A stretch of 64,000 bases of DNA from an uncultured Clostridia bacterium (GTDB taxonomy: Bacteria > Bacillota > Clostridia > Christensenellales > UBA3700). Of the stretch, positions 2,869 through 49,382 are shown piece after piece (position 1 is the first letter of the stretch; every line of letters begins with the position of its first letter). Position numbers and translations under genes: made by a program. Below the pieces are notes generated by a model. That model saw nothing but the letters and a program-made list of their open reading frames with translations, was not told the origin of the DNA and ran no database searches. Location: positions 1 to 64,000 of the forward strand of contig CAMQSU010000003.1 of the NCBI GenBank assembly GCA_947037025.1. Reading direction: 5' to 3'.

Positions 2869-2926
2869 ATAAACAATGTTGCAATAATAAAATTTAGTAA
2901 AATTGCAGTACAAAAGGAGGATCTTT

Positions 2927-4540
2927 ATGAGCGATAAAGGGATAATACTATTAATTTTCGGCTTATATCTACTACTTATGGTAGGCATAGGTTTTATATT
3001 TTATAGAAAATCAATGTCATCATCAACCTACATGCTAGGCGGAAGAAGTCTAAATCCTTGGGTTACTGCTTTTTCAGCGCAAGCATCTGATATGAGCGGC
3101 TGGTTGCTTACAGGACTTCCGGGACTATGCTGTCTGGGCATTGCCGCTGGCAGTGTTGCAGGTATTAAGGAATCAATATTTACCGCAATCGGACTATTTA
3201 TAGGTACCGCTGCTAACTGGATATTTGTAGCGAAGCGACTTAGAGTGTATACAGAGGTTGCCTCAAATTCAATCACTGTCCCAAGTTTCTTTGCAAACAG
3301 ATTCGATGATAAAAAAGGTATCCTTCAAGCAATATCAGGAGTTGTAATATTATTCTTTTTCACATTCTATGCTGCGTCAATGTTCTCAGCTGGAGCGAAA
3401 ATGTTTGAAACAATATTTGGACTTGACTATCACTTAGCACTATTAATCGGTGCAAGCATTATAGTTCTATATACATTATTAGGTGGATTTTTAGCAGTTT
3501 CATGGACTGATCTAATTCAAGGACTAATTATGTTTTTTGCACTTATTATCGTGCCAATCTTTGTTATGCGAGGGTTTAGTGACGCAGATTTCAGTGCTAT
3601 GGGCGAGATAGGTAATGCTATTTCTAATTTACTGCCACAACAAGGCGAGGCGTTTACATGGATAACTATTGCAACAGCACTTAGTTGGGGTCTTGGTTAC
3701 TTTGGTATGCCGCACGTCCTTGTAAGATTTATGGCAACAAAAAACAAAAAAACAATTAAACCTGCAGCAATAATAGCGTTAGTGTGGGTTGCAATTACAA
3801 TGGCTTGTGCTATCCTTATAGGTATTGTAGGGCGAGTTGCAGTTGGAGATGGACTTACTGATGCAACATCAGAAACAGTTTTCATGCAGTTAGTCATGAA
3901 TTCATTTGGGCCAATTGTTGCGGGACTTTTGCTCTCTGCAATACTTGCAGCTATTATGTCAACGGCAGATAGTCAGTTACTTGTTGCAAGTAGTTCGTTT
4001 GCAGAGGATATCTACAAAAAGCATCTACGCAAAAATGCAACAGATAAGGAAGTATTATTTGTATCAAGAATGACAATCATAGCAGTATCAGCAGTAGCAA
4101 TATTGTTAGCACTTGATCCTGAGTCAAAAATATTTGAGCTTGTAAAATACGCATGGGGCGGATTTGGAGCATCATTCGGGCCACTGGTAATATTCTCTCT
4201 ATATTCAAAAAAAATAAAGTTCAGCGGAGCAGTAGCGTCAATCGTAACTGGTGCAGTAACTACTATAGTATGGCGATATGGATTAAGTCACTTAGGCGGA
4301 ATCTTCCTAATATACGAACTGATCCCTGGATTTATTCTATCATCCGCAGCATTATGGATAGGGTCATTATGTGACAAGCGTCCAATTAGTGATAAGATGG
4401 CAACAGATTATGATAATTTTAAAATAGCATTAAAAGATAAATCAGATGATAATAAGATTGAAGATGATCAAAATTCGGATTGCGATGTAGAATCGGATAA
4501 TGAGCAAATGATGTCAGCTGATATTAATGCAAATAATTAA
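2927..4540 (+). CDS. putP: Sodium/proline symporter (SSS family)
   Basis: 537 residues from the ATG at 2927, which follows AAAGGAGG at the right distance; an in-frame TTG at 2903 would put the ribosome site inside the gene and is rejected. The protein is a polytopic membrane transporter of the solute:sodium symporter family. The segment GGRSLNPWVTAFSAQASDMS (39-58) matches PutP, with Asp55 at the position of the Na+ ligand of E. coli PutP, and MSTADSQLL in the later half matches the second Na+ site (Ser/Thr pair). Last about 35 residues are a hydrophilic, strongly acidic tail (DKSDDNKIEDD and on) not usual in the family. It imports proline with Na+. It stands alone between its own promoter and terminator. 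Confidence 0.92.
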   Translation: MSDKGIILLIFGLYLLLMVGIGFIFYRKSMSSSTYMLGGRSLNPWVTAFSAQASDMSGWLLTGLPGLCCLGIAAGSVAGIKESIFTAIGLFIGTAANWIFVAKRLRVYTEVASNSITVPSFFANRFDDKKGILQAISGVVILFFFTFYAASMFSAGAKMFETIFGLDYHLALLIGASIIVLYTLLGGFLAVSWTDLIQGLIMFFALIIVPIFVMRGFSDADFSAMGEIGNAISNLLPQQGEAFTWITIATALSWGLGYFGMPHVLVRFMATKNKKTIKPAAIIALVWVAITMACAILIGIVGRVAVGDGLTDATSETVFMQLVMNSFGPIVAGLLLSAILAAIMSTADSQLLVASSSFAEDIYKKHLRKNATDKEVLFVSRMTIIAVSAVAILLALDPESKIFELVKYAWGGFGASFGPLVIFSLYSKKIKFSGAVASIVTGAVTTIVWRYGLSHLGGIFLIYELIPGFILSSAALWIGSLCDKRPISDKMATDYDNFKIALKDKSDDNKIEDDQNSDCDVESDNEQMMSADINANN

Positions 4541-4632
4541 CAAAAATTGCAACTTACGGCATACATCAAATAGAGCAAGTATTAATTACTAGTATTAAAA
4601 TGTAAGCTTAATAATTAATTGTAAAATAAAAG

Positions 4633-4656
4633 ATGACTTAACAGTCATTTTTTTTT
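4633..4656 (+). terminator. Terminator after putP
   Basis: ATGACT-TAAC-AGTCAT followed by eight T. The stem is short, but the T-run is long and A precedes it. Confidence 0.75.
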
Positions 4657-4855
4657 GCGTTTTGACATACAATATTGTGGGCGGCAATAATTAGTGTATA
4701 GACTGAAATAGACTAATAAAGTTACTAGTTTCCGCATTTTGCTCTGCTGTATTATCAAATACATGTATAAATTGTAGCTAAACTCTGCTAAATCAGGGCA
4801 AAACGATGTAATTTGCTACACTTATGTAAATTAATTGTAAATTTCAGTTTTCCTA

Positions 4856-4885
4856 TTGACAATATTCAATTGCGTATGCTAGACT
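4856..4885 (+). promoter_or_regulatory. Promoter at the head of the non-coding locus
   Basis: TTGACA (4856-4861) and TAGACT (4880-4885) with an 18-base spacer. No gene of any credible length follows for more than 1.3 kb on this strand, so the transcript started here would be non-coding. Confidence 0.6.
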
Positions 4886-4891
4886 ATATGT

Positions 4892-5300
4892 AAGAAACAA
4901 ACTCGCCATTCGTGAAAGACAAGTTTTCAGATAAAACTGAAATGTCTGAGTGGGGGATTGGCTTTAGAGGATACAAAATCTAAAGTTCTGATTACAAGTA
5001 GCAATGCTTGTGATAAATTATTTGATTACAAATGAGTTAGTAACCATATAGCGGACTTGTAAATTATTGCAAAATACGCAAATGTATGAAGGAACTCGAT
5101 TAAGAGATAATGGGGAAAATCGTTCTCTTAAACAAAGGCAATACCAACTTGCAAAAACTGAGTGTTTTATAAACTAAGTTTAGCTTGGCAGTACTGTCTA
5201 ACAAATCAAAGTGCTTTATTGCAAATGAAGTAAGACGTTATTGTAATTGTGAATAGTCACAAATAGAAAAACATCTTGCATCGAATTGAGTTTTTGATTA
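4892..5300 (+). ncRNA. Candidate structured non-coding RNA, 5' section
   Basis: No open frame here is preceded by a ribosome site. Several hairpins can be drawn in order: AGACA...TGTCT enclosing TTTCAG/CTGAAA (4917-4947); CTTTAGA/TCTAAAG (4962-4985); ACAAG/CTTGT near 5000; TAAGAGA/TCTCTTA (5101-5130). It begins at a promoter and the first terminator in its direction is at 6217-6256. I looked for tmRNA, RNase P RNA and SRP RNA signatures (the RNase P GAGGAAAGTCC box, the tRNA-like ends of tmRNA, the SRP GNRA domain) and did not find them. The 3' end is arbitrary here; the transcript may run on through both element copies. Function unknown. Confidence 0.4.
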
Positions 5301-5399
5301 GTCGAATTCTCAAAATAAAAATAAAAATATTAATGTCAAATTAAAATTAAAGTGAACATAAAAATTGAACATGAAAATAAAATAAATAATTATAATTTT

Positions 5400-5565
5400 C
5401 GGCAACTGCCGATTAGACTGAGAGAGCTTGAGACGAAGTGACCGTAGCCCAAATGACTAGAGTTAGAGTCTAAGTGCATGCATTTTTTAAATTTGTATAG
5501 CGAAGTGACCGTAGTCCAAAAAGACAAGGGTTTGAGTCGAGGAGTCCGAGGGGCTTGCTCCAGCC
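5400..5565 (+). repeat. Duplicated internally repeated element, copy A
   Basis: A block clearly richer in G+C than its AT-rich surroundings. It opens with a perfect hairpin (CGGCA-AC-TGCCG, 5400-5411), then GAGAGCTTGAGACGAAGTGA, and contains two modules about 67 bases apart (near 5432 and 5499) sharing CGAAGTGACCGTAG, each with a GAC and AGAGTC/TGAGTC further on. It ends in GAGTCCGAGGGGCTTGCTCC then AGCC. Strand is given in the sense of the 4856 promoter. Copy B at 5797 has the same order of parts. A small hairpin AATGACA/TGTCATT (5568-5586) follows. I do not recognise a named family. Confidence 0.7.
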
Positions 5566-5796
5566 TAAATGACAATACCTGTCATTATAAAATTCAATTA
5601 ATATTACAATTAAAGTGATAATGGTAATTAAAATTTGAAGCAAAATATATTTGCAGAGTATAAGGTGTAATAAAGAATGCGGATTTGTATCAAAAATGGT
5701 TCAAAAATATCGCTAATTACACATAAAACTTAACTCGATTCAGTGAGTATAGAAATAATCTATATCACGCATTTATAATAAAGAAAGAGCAAAATT

Positions 5797-5971
5797 CGGC
5801 AATTATGCCGTCAGACGGAGAGAGTTTGAGACGAAGTGAACGAGACCTACATGACGCAGGGCGAGTGTCTAAATGCCGTTGTAAACTGTATATTAGTTGC
5901 AATGAGCGAGTGACCGTAGCCTATATGACGACAGGGTTAGATTCGATGAGTCCGAGGGGCTTACTCCAGCC
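5797..5971 (+). repeat. Duplicated internally repeated element, copy B
   Basis: Same architecture as copy A: an opening hairpin CGGCA-ATTA-TGCCG (5797-5810) with a different loop but the same stem, GAGAGTTTGAGACGAAGTGA, two modules about 74 bases apart (near 5830 and 5904), and an end block GAGTCCGAGGGGCTTACTCC plus AGCC. The closing stem shows a supporting change: GAGT pairs with ACTC here and with GCTC (a G-T pair) in copy A, and loop lengths vary while stems hold. This suggests that structure is what is kept. Confidence 0.7.
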
Positions 5972-6016
5972 AAAAACAAATAAGTTAAGAATTATATAAT
6001 AGAGGTTTTTCTCTAA

Positions 6017-6042
6017 GATAAGATTGTCGCGAAAATCTTATC
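6017..6042. other. Stem-loop in the non-coding locus
   Basis: GATAAGATT (6017-6025) pairs perfectly with AATCTTATC (6034-6042) around an 8-base loop containing CGCG. No T-run follows on the plus strand, so it is more likely part of an RNA structure than a terminator. A shorter AGAG/CTCT hairpin lies just before it. Confidence 0.55.
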
Positions 6043-6216
6043 AGATAATTAAAATAAAAATATAAGCATAGTTATAAATAATCTTCACAAGCTGACATGA
6101 TTATGGCAGCATAATAATTAAGAAGCTTAACTATAACCAGCTTTTACAACTGAATATATAAGTTATTGATAATAGTAATTTGTTAATTACTGAAAATTTC
6201 AAGAAACGAAATAAAG

Positions 6217-6256
6217 ATTACCCACAAGCATTATGCTTGTGGGTAATTTTGTTTTA
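6217..6256 (+). terminator. Strong rho-independent terminator ending the non-coding locus
   Basis: ATTACCCACAAGCA (6217-6230) pairs without mismatch with TGCTTGTGGGTAAT (6234-6247) around a TTA loop, followed by a T-rich tail. There is no protein-coding gene upstream on this strand back to putP, which has its own terminator, so this one must serve a non-coding transcript. A/T-rich flanks would also allow it to act leftward. Confidence 0.85.
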
Positions 6257-6353
6257 CACATTAAATGCAGCTATTTTAACTGCGCATAATATGAATTTAG
6301 CATTTATATTTAAATTGATATGCTACTAAAAAAACTAGCAGTTTATATGATCA

Positions 6354-6470
6354 TTTTGCACATTTTCTACTTATTTTTGCTCATTTATTGCATGTTTTTT
6401 AGGTGTTTTTGCACGTTTTTTGCATGTTTTCTGCACGTTTTTTACGTGTTTCTACATGTTTATTTAGCCA
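6354..6470. repeat. Array of phased T-tracts, 10-11 bp period
   Basis: About ten to eleven consecutive units, each a run of 3-6 T plus a short GC-containing core such as GCACG, GCATG, GGTG or ACGTG, repeating every 10-11 bases. Read on the minus strand, the sense of the DUF1540 gene that ends at 6497, the units resemble the CGTGCAAAAAA units at 49120-49217. A-tracts in step with the helix are known to bend DNA. No spacers or open frame are present. Confidence 0.7.
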
Positions 6471-6496
6471 TAATTTTAGGCATTTCGGCTAATAAA

Positions 6497-6805
6497 TTAT
6501 TTAGCTTTTGTTTTGCACTTAGTATGCATCATTTTATCTCCAACAGTTATATGCTCAGCTGCACATTTGTTGCTTTTGTTATGCATACATTCAGTGCTGC
6601 CGCACTCAATAAAAGTGTCGTCATTATCTGAGTAATCAAACTCAGCAGCAGTCTCCATATTGATAAACTCTTGCTCAATTACACCATTTTCACGGCGTAA
6701 TTTTGTTGCACAATTACCATGTTTATCTACATTGATAATTCCTGCGCGGCAATGACAGCCTTCATTAAATTCACAGTTGCTTGTTGTACATTTTAATCCT
6801 TTCAT
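6497..6805 (-). CDS. DUF1540 small cysteine-rich protein
   Basis: 102 residues. Two Cys-rich halves: residues 5-27 (C5, C10, C17, C19) and a similar C-terminal block with ECGSTECMHN, NKSNKC and a last Cys near 97, joined by an acidic linker with FDYSDNDD. This is the DUF1540 layout, in which pairs of short four-Cys motifs probably bind a metal; the function of the family is unknown. GGAGG lies seven bases upstream of the ATG. The gene is isolated: the next gene rightward is divergent, and a phased T-tract array lies directly after its stop codon. Confidence 0.8.
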   Translation of the reverse strand: MKGLKCTTSNCEFNEGCHCRAGIINVDKHGNCATKLRRENGVIEQEFINMETAAEFDYSDNDDTFIECGSTECMHNKSNKCAAEHITVGDKMMHTKCKTKAK

Positions 6806-7002: not shown

Positions 7003-7050
7003 GTTAGAATAAGTATGCAACACTATTTTGAGCAAATTAAAGGAGTTACA

Positions 7051-7722
7051 ATGAGAATTGAAATAATCAAACAACTGAGTCACACGGATAAGGTTTACCT
7101 TGCGAAAAATGACGAGGGAGATAAGGTCGTTCTAAAAAAATACAAAGATGTAAATTGTATGGCGTTAGAAACGACAATCCTTAATCAGTTGTCTATATCT
7201 GGCTACGCACCTAAAGTTTTAGAGCAAGGCGAAGACAGTATAATTTACGAGTATATAGAGGGTGATTCATTTTTAGATAAATATATAAGTTATTCTATGA
7301 TGGATGACACGGAAGGACTTATTAGACTAGCAAACGAGCTTAGTATTTATCTGCAGATATTCTATTCGCTAGCAGAAGGGTACATCATTAAGGATATCAG
7401 TTTCAGCAATTTCATTATTAAAGATAGCAGATGTTACGGAGTTGATTACGATTCTGTTGCAGAGGGAATGCAGTATACAGATATCGGCGGAGTGGTGGCA
7501 TTTGCAGTTAAGCATGTTGTAGGCGATATTCAGGCAAGTTTCCCGTTTATCCAACAAGTGCTTAAAAATTTCCGTATGCAGATGATAGATATTATTAATG
7601 ATGTAAAGGAAGTATTGCAAAAAACCGAATCTCCGCTATATTATGAGCAAGTTTTAGCAGTTTTGATAATGATTGATGATGATATAATAGATGATATCGG
7701 ATATGTGGAAAATAATTCATAA
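7051..7722 (+). CDS. Protein-kinase-fold protein of unknown substrate
   Basis: 223 residues from the ATG at 7051, preceded by AAAGGAG; an ATG at 7015 has no ribosome site. The layout is that of a minimal kinase fold related to aminoglycoside/lipopolysaccharide kinases: VVLKK (Lys 29/30) for the ATP lysine, Glu40 for its partner, IIYEYIEGDSF as the hinge, KDISFSN (Asp115, Asn120) as the catalytic loop and VDYD (Asp132) in place of DFG. It lacks a clear glycine-rich loop. All key catalytic residues are present, so activity is plausible, but the substrate (small molecule, sugar or protein) cannot be read. A helical C-terminal tail follows. Monocistronic, before a separate promoter. Confidence 0.65.
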   Translation: MRIEIIKQLSHTDKVYLAKNDEGDKVVLKKYKDVNCMALETTILNQLSISGYAPKVLEQGEDSIIYEYIEGDSFLDKYISYSMMDDTEGLIRLANELSIYLQIFYSLAEGYIIKDISFSNFIIKDSRCYGVDYDSVAEGMQYTDIGGVVAFAVKHVVGDIQASFPFIQQVLKNFRMQMIDIINDVKEVLQKTESPLYYEQVLAVLIMIDDDIIDDIGYVENNS

Positions 7723-7804: not shown

Positions 7805-8029
7805 ATGAAATTTAGAGACAGATTAGTCGGATTGAGAAAGCAAAAAGGTTACAATCAAAATTACATAGCGATCTATATGGGTGTTTCGCAAGTATCTATT
7901 AGCAATTGGGAGAGAGGTCTTAAAGAACCTAATTTTCAGTCGCTAATTGACCTAGCGAATCTATTTGGGGTGTCATGTGATTTCCTTCTAGGCGTTTCAG
8001 ATAAAGCTGAAACTGAGGAGAAACTATGA
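7805..8029 (+). CDS. XRE-family HTH regulator
   Basis: 74 residues that are almost entirely one HTH_3 domain: FRDRLVGLRKQKGYNQNYIA starts helix 1, then the recognition helix around VSQVSISNWERG, then NFQSLIDLANLFGVSCDFLLG. Such short proteins bind operator DNA as dimers. No sensor domain is attached, so the signal is unknown. Its stop overlaps the start of the next gene by four bases (ATGA), so it is translationally coupled to the DUF4380 protein and heads a run of overlapping genes; it may control that run by autoregulation. Confidence 0.88.
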   Translation: MKFRDRLVGLRKQKGYNQNYIAIYMGVSQVSISNWERGLKEPNFQSLIDLANLFGVSCDFLLGVSDKAETEEKL

Positions 8030-8934
8030 TTAATATTAAAAATATGCAGTATTTATGTTATGGCAATTGCCTTGAGATTACAAACGGTAATGTTATGCTA
8101 AGGGTTACAACTGATGTTGGACCACGCATTATTTATTACGGCACTCAGGACGAAGACAACATGATGTTTTGCGATGTTAATGATGATATTAATGTTCAAA
8201 ACGAATATCTAGATACAAATTTCCAAAAGGGTGAGACTTGGCATATTTATGGCGGTCACAGACTTTGGACTTCTCCAGAAAATCAAGGATCTTACTTCCC
8301 TGATAATTATCCAGTACAAGTAGAAATGCTTGATAATGGTGCAACTTTCTACGGAATTAATGAAGTTACTAATGGCATAAGAAAAACAATCAAAATTACT
8401 ATGGATGAGAGCGGTGTTGTAACAATTGACCACTCATTTACTAATTTTACAGAAAATCCAGTAACTATTGCTTTGTGGGCGTTATCAGTTATGAATAAAG
8501 GCGGACTTGCAGTTATACCTATGTCAACAGAAGATACAGGATTGCTTGCAAACAGAAACCTTGTGTTATGGCCATATACAAATGTCCGTGATGCTAGACT
8601 AACTATTGCGCAAAAGTTTTTCTCTCTGCAGCAGAATGTTAAATGTGATGGACCGCTTAAGATAGGCGTTCTTAATACTGAAGGTTTAGTTTATTACATA
8701 CGCGGCGGAAAAATGCTAGAGAAGAAATTTAATAAAGCAAACCGTGATGGCACTTATGTTGATTACAGTTGCAGCACCGAGCTTTACACTAGCGAGCATT
8801 TTATAGAAGTTGAAGCAATATCAGAGCTTTTTGATATTGCTGCAAGTGCAACTGAGCATCATGTAGAAGTTTGGACATTGCATGAAGGCGACAAGTTACA
8901 ATCGGAAATCATGGAGATGATAAATGAAGGCTAA
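8026..8934 (+). CDS. DUF4380 / galactose-mutarotase-like protein
   Basis: 302 residues. The N-terminal third carries TTDVGPRIIYYG and then WHIYGGHRLWTSPE, typical of DUF4380 proteins, which have the beta-sandwich fold of aldose 1-epimerases. His and Arg within GGHRLW are likely sugar contacts. The rest is beta-rich with no signal peptide, so it should be cytoplasmic. The substrate is unknown. It overlaps the XRE gene before it by four bases and the lipoprotein gene after it by eleven, so all three are coupled. Assignment rests on the motif block; a carbohydrate-modifying role is inference. Confidence 0.72.
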   Translation: MINIKNMQYLCYGNCLEITNGNVMLRVTTDVGPRIIYYGTQDEDNMMFCDVNDDINVQNEYLDTNFQKGETWHIYGGHRLWTSPENQGSYFPDNYPVQVEMLDNGATFYGINEVTNGIRKTIKITMDESGVVTIDHSFTNFTENPVTIALWALSVMNKGGLAVIPMSTEDTGLLANRNLVLWPYTNVRDARLTIAQKFFSLQQNVKCDGPLKIGVLNTEGLVYYIRGGKMLEKKFNKANRDGTYVDYSCSTELYTSEHFIEVEAISELFDIAASATEHHVEVWTLHEGDKLQSEIMEMINEG

Positions 8935-15620: not shown

Positions 15621-15696
15621 GCCTTAATAGCTCAGTTGGTAGAGCATGCGGCTGTTAACCGCAGGGTCACAGGTTCGAGTCCTGTTTAAGGCGCCA
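15621..15696 (+). tRNA. tRNA-Asn (anticodon GTT), CCA encoded
   Basis: 76 bases. The acceptor stem GCCTTAA/TTAAGGC is perfect, the D-arm is GCTC-AGTTGGTA-GAGC, the anticodon arm has loop CTGTTAA with anticodon GTT, the T-arm has GGTTCGAGTCC, and the discriminator G is followed by genomic CCA. It has its own promoter and terminator. Confidence 0.97.
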
Positions 15697-49119: not shown

Positions 49120-49217
49120 CGTGCAAAAAACAAGCAAAAAACGCATGAAAAACGCACAAAAAACGTGCCAAAAACGCACAAAAACGTGCAAAAAACGCAT
49201 GAAAAACAAGCAAAATT
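49120..49217. repeat. Array of nine phased A-tract units, 11-bp period
   Basis: Nine units in a row, starting at 49120, 49131, 49142, 49153, 49164, 49175, 49185, 49196 and 49207: all 11 bases except one of 10. Each is a 5-6 base core (CGTGC, CAAGC, CGCATG, CGCAC) plus A4-A6. The A-tracts are thus in step with the helix turn. The array starts 24 bases after the ATPase stop codon and runs in its sense. Confidence 0.8.
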
Positions 49218-49382
49218 GTGTGATTTTTTTCAATAAATTAGCAATATGAAATAATATAATAACTGATTATTTGCGGCATACTAGCTGCTAAATAGATTTA
49301 TACTATCCTTATATCCGGTGCGAATTGCTACTAGATACAGGCTGGTACAGGCAAGGAATACCTACGGGTAGAAGGAGTATTT

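Follow-up and report, generated by a model that had tools for sequence, protein, structure and literature searches.

The window is a stretch of 64,000 nucleotides from contig 3 of G000, a genome of 1.62 Mb (74% complete). Between putP and a convergent DUF1540 gene the window has a gap of 1,956 nt (4541-6496). When ORFs of at least 80 aa are counted, nothing else in the 64 kb stays free of them for as long as positions 4541-6319 (1,779 nt); the runner-up, at 612 nt, is almost threefold shorter. The setting is one of housekeeping genes. Flanking genes with Pfam matches encode a symporter, a DUF1540 protein, an HTH protein and a nitroreductase, and the sole tRNA of the window lies at 15621, 9 kb off. 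The same locus is found in a second genome of the genus (G002; contig CAMQWP010000003.1, "uncultured Clostridia bacterium"). The features are listed here, those of the candidate RNA and its hairpins (HP1 to HP3) being predictions.

2903-4540, plus strand: putP (SSF, sodium:solute symporter), from Pfam
4633-4656, plus strand: putP terminator (ATGACTTAACAGTCAT and a T tract), from the sequence; separates putP from the putative RNA gene
4856-4885, plus strand: candidate RNA promoter, TTGACA-18-TAGACT with TG ahead of the second hexamer, from the sequence and the same site in G002
4892-5290, plus strand: 5' domain, a series of stable hairpins that holds the first copies of HP1 and HP2, from folding
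5051-5079, plus strand: HP1, first copy, with GCG, an asymmetric internal loop and a 6-bp stem; the same fold was predicted independently in G002
5100-5131, plus strand: HP2, first copy, with a UUAAGAGA/UCUCUUAA stem and a GGGGAAAA loop region (p = 0.0075 against shuffles)
5399-5412, plus strand: HP3, first copy, UCGGC-AACU-GCCGA (z = -4.0)
5415-5570, plus strand: module I, a closing helix around two GAC/GUC units, ending in GTCCGAGGGGCTTGCTCCAGCC, from RNAalifold and a pair count
5679-5713, plus strand: HP1, second copy, with GCGG/UUUG/AUCA stems, from folding and a match to covariance model R2, which was itself built with this copy
5743-5768, plus strand: HP2, second copy, GUGA/UCAC outer and UAUAGA/UCUAUA inner (p = 0.016)
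5797-5810, plus strand: HP3, second copy, CGGCAAUUAUGCCG (z = -3.5)
5813-5975, plus strand: module II, a second closing helix with a two-unit array, from repeat, alignment and folding
5976-6210, plus strand: 3' domain, AT-rich, with hairpins at 6000-6015 and 6017-6042; weakly alignable to G002
6217-6256, plus strand: intrinsic terminator, bidirectional and common to the candidate RNA and the convergent DUF1540 gene; putative 3' end of the RNA, from its fold and conservation in G002
6497-6805, minus strand: DUF1540 gene (Pfam), convergent, the next gene downstream of the candidate RNA

An earlier, sequence-only reading of this DNA had claimed that no credible gene lies between putP and the DUF1540 gene, and our results agree. 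The gap holds just two start-to-stop frames of more than 60 aa, 5390-5575 (minus strand, 61 aa) and 5805-5999 (plus strand, 64 aa), neither of which matched in a Pfam search. Stop-to-stop frames reach 90 at most, close to the chance expectation, since shuffles have a mean of 79 and a 95% point of 109. A conserved peptide was sought between the gaps of the window and G002, and none was found beyond short matches at chance level. With window frames of chance length, no conserved peptide and no Pfam match, we reject coding on either strand. The composition of the region is purine-rich (A 0.39/T 0.29, G 0.19/C 0.13). A trap for gene finders exists in G002, where a frame of 134 aa (L045 4054-4458, plus strand) runs antisense to a 57-nt array and stays open because the repeat period of 57 is a multiple of 3. 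As a gene it is rejected as well: its counterpart in the window is just 61 aa long and module II has no equivalent.

Taken by itself, the window makes a weak argument for an RNA gene, because its promoter is not above chance and its terminator is bidirectional. The promoter-like pair pointed out by the earlier reading stands as to its location and its conservation in G002, but not as a match in a single sequence: 12 promoter-like sites were counted, compared with 13.8 in shuffles. The proposed terminator has a stem of 14 bp (6217-6247, z = -8.3) and recurs in G002, where compensatory changes turn AAGC/GCTT into AGAC/GTCT, but it is not specific to an ncRNA. Being bidirectional, it can serve the DUF1540 gene, and hence alone it is not evidence for an ncRNA. 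It is the comparison with G002 that decides the case.

The gene order tuf-nitroreductase-putP-[gap]-DUF1540-kinase-like-HTH is common to G000 and G002, in equal relative orientation, and putP is 81% and DUF1540 79% identical. The gap measures about 1,956 nt in G000 and about 2,206 nt in G002, where the RNA would be about 1.7 kb long. A genome-wide blastn search with the window region detected the terminator alone in G002. Permissive pairwise comparison gave a series of matches in one and the same order: the promoter together with the 5' domain (58% over 380 columns, E = 1.4e-4), HP2, the module rich in GA (76% over 72, E = 1e-9), the ends of the modules and, last, the 3' end, terminator included (E = 1e-9; 68% over 118 columns). 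Promoter, hairpins and terminator hence follow one another identically in the two genomes. The flank 3' of the terminator is not alignable between them. The G002 promoter, TTGACA-17-TAGACT with TG (L045 4995-4967, minus strand), has an equal relative place; the second hexamer is TGCTAGACT in both, preceded by TGC in both, and the spacer is 17-18 nt. Upstream, the putP terminator is also kept in G002 (ATGGCTTTTAAGTCAT and T9; 76% over 71 nt), which suggests that the RNA forms a unit of its own. A sigma-70-type promoter belonging to the RNA gene would start transcription near 4892, and the bidirectional terminator would end it near 6256, so that the predicted RNA (start, exact ends and transcription are all read from the DNA) would span some 1.36 kb of the plus strand.

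The hairpins that had been described as spread between promoter and terminator are indeed there, as an HP1-HP3 series in two module copies. The predicted fold consists of the hairpin-rich 5' domain, two modules and the 3' domain, and the module plan occurs twice: HP1, HP2, an AT-rich linker, HP3 and then a tandem GAC/GUC array enclosed by a closing helix. Positions 5415-5569 and 5813-5975 are repeat copies (81-88% over 43-nt blocks), the duplication reaches beyond them, and in the permissive pairwise comparison it has an E value of 7e-28. In module I, GAGAGAG..GAC..UGA pairs with UC..GUC..CUC. Every module has such a closing helix, GAGAGAG.UUUG.GAC....UGA with UC....GUC...GGGGCUU.CUC, with variations between copies. 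GAC and GUC alternate within the array units and have several possible pairing registers, and hence the inner fold of the array may take more than one form. G002 carries two modules too (E = 8e-15 between them), the first of which contains a tandem repeat with a 57-nt period and 6.2 copies at 95%. Counted from the sequence, the arrays hold two units in each window module, and about seven (module I) and about two (module II) in G002.

The earlier reading had made its RNA depend on conserved structure among relatives, and such structure is present in G002 and in the paralogous modules. First, in a closing-helix alignment based on three module copies, 92% of cells are paired and 7 of 26 pairs show changes on both sides, which none of 500 shuffles reached; part of this signal arises by construction, because the structure was derived from that very alignment. 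Shifting the partner strand by 1-3 columns lowers the pairing to 25-46%. Second, hairpins homologous to HP1, HP2 and HP3 beat dinucleotide shuffles in the other copies (Fisher p = 4.7e-6, leaving out terminators and discovery copies). The shape of HP1 is kept with different stems (UUGUAA:UUGCAA, UUUGCA:UGCAAA, UUUG:CAAA and UUUACAAU:AUUGUAAA), the first of these, from the first copy, being replaced by the second in G002 (L045 4816-4782, minus strand). The first copy of HP2 has homologous hairpins at two sites in G002 module I, and the second copy differs from it by pairs changed on both sides. Because MAFFT alignments of the HP2 copies were out of register, this covariation was tallied by hand, which is not a blind test. 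HP3 has an equivalent in G002, UAAUGCU..AGCAUUG (z = -3.1). By the searches used only two species carry the RNA, and hence the covariation rests on two orthologues and the copies within the molecule.

The third test of the fold compares the strands. Positions 4892-5300 fold with -102.1 kcal/mol (z = -4.45; none of 100 shuffles was as good), compared with -81.1 for the reverse complement, and module II has an MFE of -49.9 compared with -37.7. The plus strand folds better in all five domains tested, by 5-21 kcal/mol, which fits transcription from a plus-strand promoter. The hand-listed helices include eight G-U pairs that become A-C if read from the opposite strand. Folded by themselves, the modules reach only modest z-scores (-0.9 and -1.3).

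A conserved promoter and terminator, covarying homologous modules (two orthologues and paralogous modules) and the lack of coding conservation support the proposal of a large ncRNA whose promoter and terminator are its own. We consider it very probable that 4541-6496 holds a stand-alone gene for a large structured ncRNA, its transcription being predicted. The molecule would evolve fast in sequence and by duplication of units and modules, while the order of its helices and both ends are retained.

Its distribution is narrow. Covariance models R1 (module) and R2 (HP1-HP2) matched only G000 and G002 among 396 genomes of the order. Exact motif scans found nothing in viral sequences and, among GTDB genomes, only the contig of G002 itself. 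The third genome of the genus, G001 (1.72 Mb), gave a best E value of 9.5 in a sensitive genus search, which amounts to nothing, and read almost whole it showed only AT-rich chance matches. Neither the RNA nor a close putP accompanies the DUF1540-kinase-HTH block of G001, and DUF1540 and its two adjoining genes are about 12 points less identical there than in G002. The RNA may be young, or it was lost in G001, or it has diverged there past recognition. Because synteny is kept across the whole region and the block on the DUF1540 side occurs without the RNA in G001, the neighbours are uninformative on function. The proteins encoded at 7015-7722 (kinase-like by eye) and 8026-8934 are syntenic in all three genomes of the genus, with 60-75% identity and no Pfam match.

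The sequence-only reading could name no known RNA that fits, and neither can Rfam release 15. Searched with the whole window at gathering score, it returned just one tRNA, and thus no covariance-model match to ROOL, GOLLD, OLE or HEARO, the families it had singled out, nor to raiA. With E values up to 10, the gap region of both species gave nothing beyond chance similarity to other families, most of it at the terminator. ARAGORN found no tRNA or tmRNA in the gap region. A hammerhead-like CGATGAGTCCGAGG near 5951 was dropped, since its core is incomplete and absent from module I, and a GAGTTTGAGTC resembling a tRNA T-loop was dropped as its T-stem is unpaired. Very few bacterial RNAs other than ribosomal and messenger RNAs exceed 1 kb, to our knowledge, and ROOL has no expandable tandem array that we know of. 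OLE (RF01071), also a large chromosomal RNA of Bacillota, is about 600 nt long, widespread and well conserved, unlike the RNA described here. The raiA motif, or ModT, is likewise a structured ncRNA of Bacillota, but it is conserved in more than 2,500 species (PMC11706538), whereas ours occurs in two species by the searches used. Relative to Rfam 15 we read it as a new, narrowly distributed and fast-evolving family of large ncRNA, in which an expandable array inside a closed module is unusual.

What might such an RNA do? Most likely, the repeated units would bind a partner, protein or RNA, in several copies, for titration or as a scaffold. CsrB and RsmZ bind many CsrA dimers through repeated hairpins, and the RNA is proposed to work alike. 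In known RNAs (CsrB/RsmZ and the large ornate RNAs), repeated folded units serve multivalency. The repeat architecture tentatively suggests a multivalent platform, a reading to which we give somewhat less than even chances. For the explanation as a whole, a large structured ncRNA gene that acts as a multivalent platform, we consider the chances even.

Alternatively, the modules could be docking units through which the RNA forms homo-oligomers in the style of ROOL, GOLLD and OLE. The three known large ornate RNAs do dock with each other as homo-oligomers (PMC12286853), and the size, the repeated structural modules and the absence of an obvious protein partner nearby would suit such self-assembly. 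ROOL (520 nt as an lncRNA of L. salivarius, PMC5643018; up to 659 nt, PMC12286853) is likewise long, stand-alone, highly structured and narrowly distributed, and GOLLD (RF01998), with many members of more than 800 nt (PMC12286853), is a giant ornate multi-domain RNA too. Yet covariance models relate the RNA to none of the three families, and the gene context differs: phages and prophages carry ROOL and GOLLD, in many cases close to tRNA islands (PMC12286853), and ROOL is also found on a megaplasmid, whereas our RNA is chromosomal, among housekeeping genes, with no phage, prophage or plasmid setting and no tRNA island. Self-assembly is an unlikely reading, and we give most weight to a putative partner that would be bound repeatedly.

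It is slightly less likely still that the region is what is left of a mobile or repetitive element, decayed and without function. Repeats, AT-rich linkers, a narrow distribution and fast divergence are what such a remnant would leave. The earlier reading had itself named a decayed mobile element as one finding that would speak against an RNA, and we found no such remnant: there is no protein remnant, no second copy of the region in its own genome, no match in the phage collections searched and only short AT-rich matches in the plasmid collections. Moreover, promoter, helix order and terminator are retained in two species despite sequence divergence.

It is improbable that we are dealing with a small-RNA precursor or with a repeat RNA of CRISPR, ToxI or retron style, dependent on a neighboring protein. 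The 57-nt tandem units of G002 do recall ToxI-type RNAs, which are arrays of short structured repeats. But ToxI repeats lie directly upstream of a ToxN-type gene, and here the downstream gene is the convergent DUF1540 gene; the Pfam-matched flanking genes include no toxin, Cas protein or reverse transcriptase; the DUF1540-kinase-HTH block stands without the RNA in G001; and CRISPR repeats alternate with unique spacers, whereas the units here are uniform. Finally, a CsrB-like titrator of CsrA has next to no chance: this is a large hairpin-rich RNA whose HP2 loop contains GGGGA and whose HP1 contains GCGGA, but its repeats differ, GGA is depleted (8 seen, 19 expected; in G002 11 and 26) and no csrA gene was found in the three genomes of the genus, which refutes the CsrA-sponge form unless csrA lies in an unassembled part.

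The closed helical module with its expandable array of small folded units might constitute a new class of large bacterial RNA in uncultured Clostridia, a tunable multivalent scaffold or self-assembling RNA whose valency varies from 2 to about 7 units between species; this we regard as doubtful at present. Growth by duplication of folded modules would show how large ornate RNAs originate. RNA genes of this size can escape catalogues when they occur in one or two species and their sequence diverges rapidly.

Other repeats were seen in these genomes. In G001, a leucine-type tRNA gene (L124, C14, 6600-7050) is followed by two extra tandem copies of its 3' end and a terminator; the copies have a 133-nt period (98%) and resemble scars of repeated integration at a tRNA. 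A non-coding stretch of the same genome (L092, C8, 7905-8246) carries a 165-nt direct repeat in 2.1 copies (93%). In G000, A-tract arrays (AAAAAAC, then GTGC/ATGC/GCAC/AGC) are dispersed at at least a dozen sites, among them window positions 6350-6480 (minus strand) and 49128-49220, as well as C1:86328, C1:131027, C2:91352, C4:42270, C4:74809, C6:66998, C10:24391, C18:8467, C34:8022 and C46:147-333. They often begin directly behind a stop codon, the coding strand being the one that carries the A-tracts, and their mean centre spacing of 10.8 nt (63 spacings in seven arrays) is in phase with the DNA helix. These arrays are probably curved-DNA elements.
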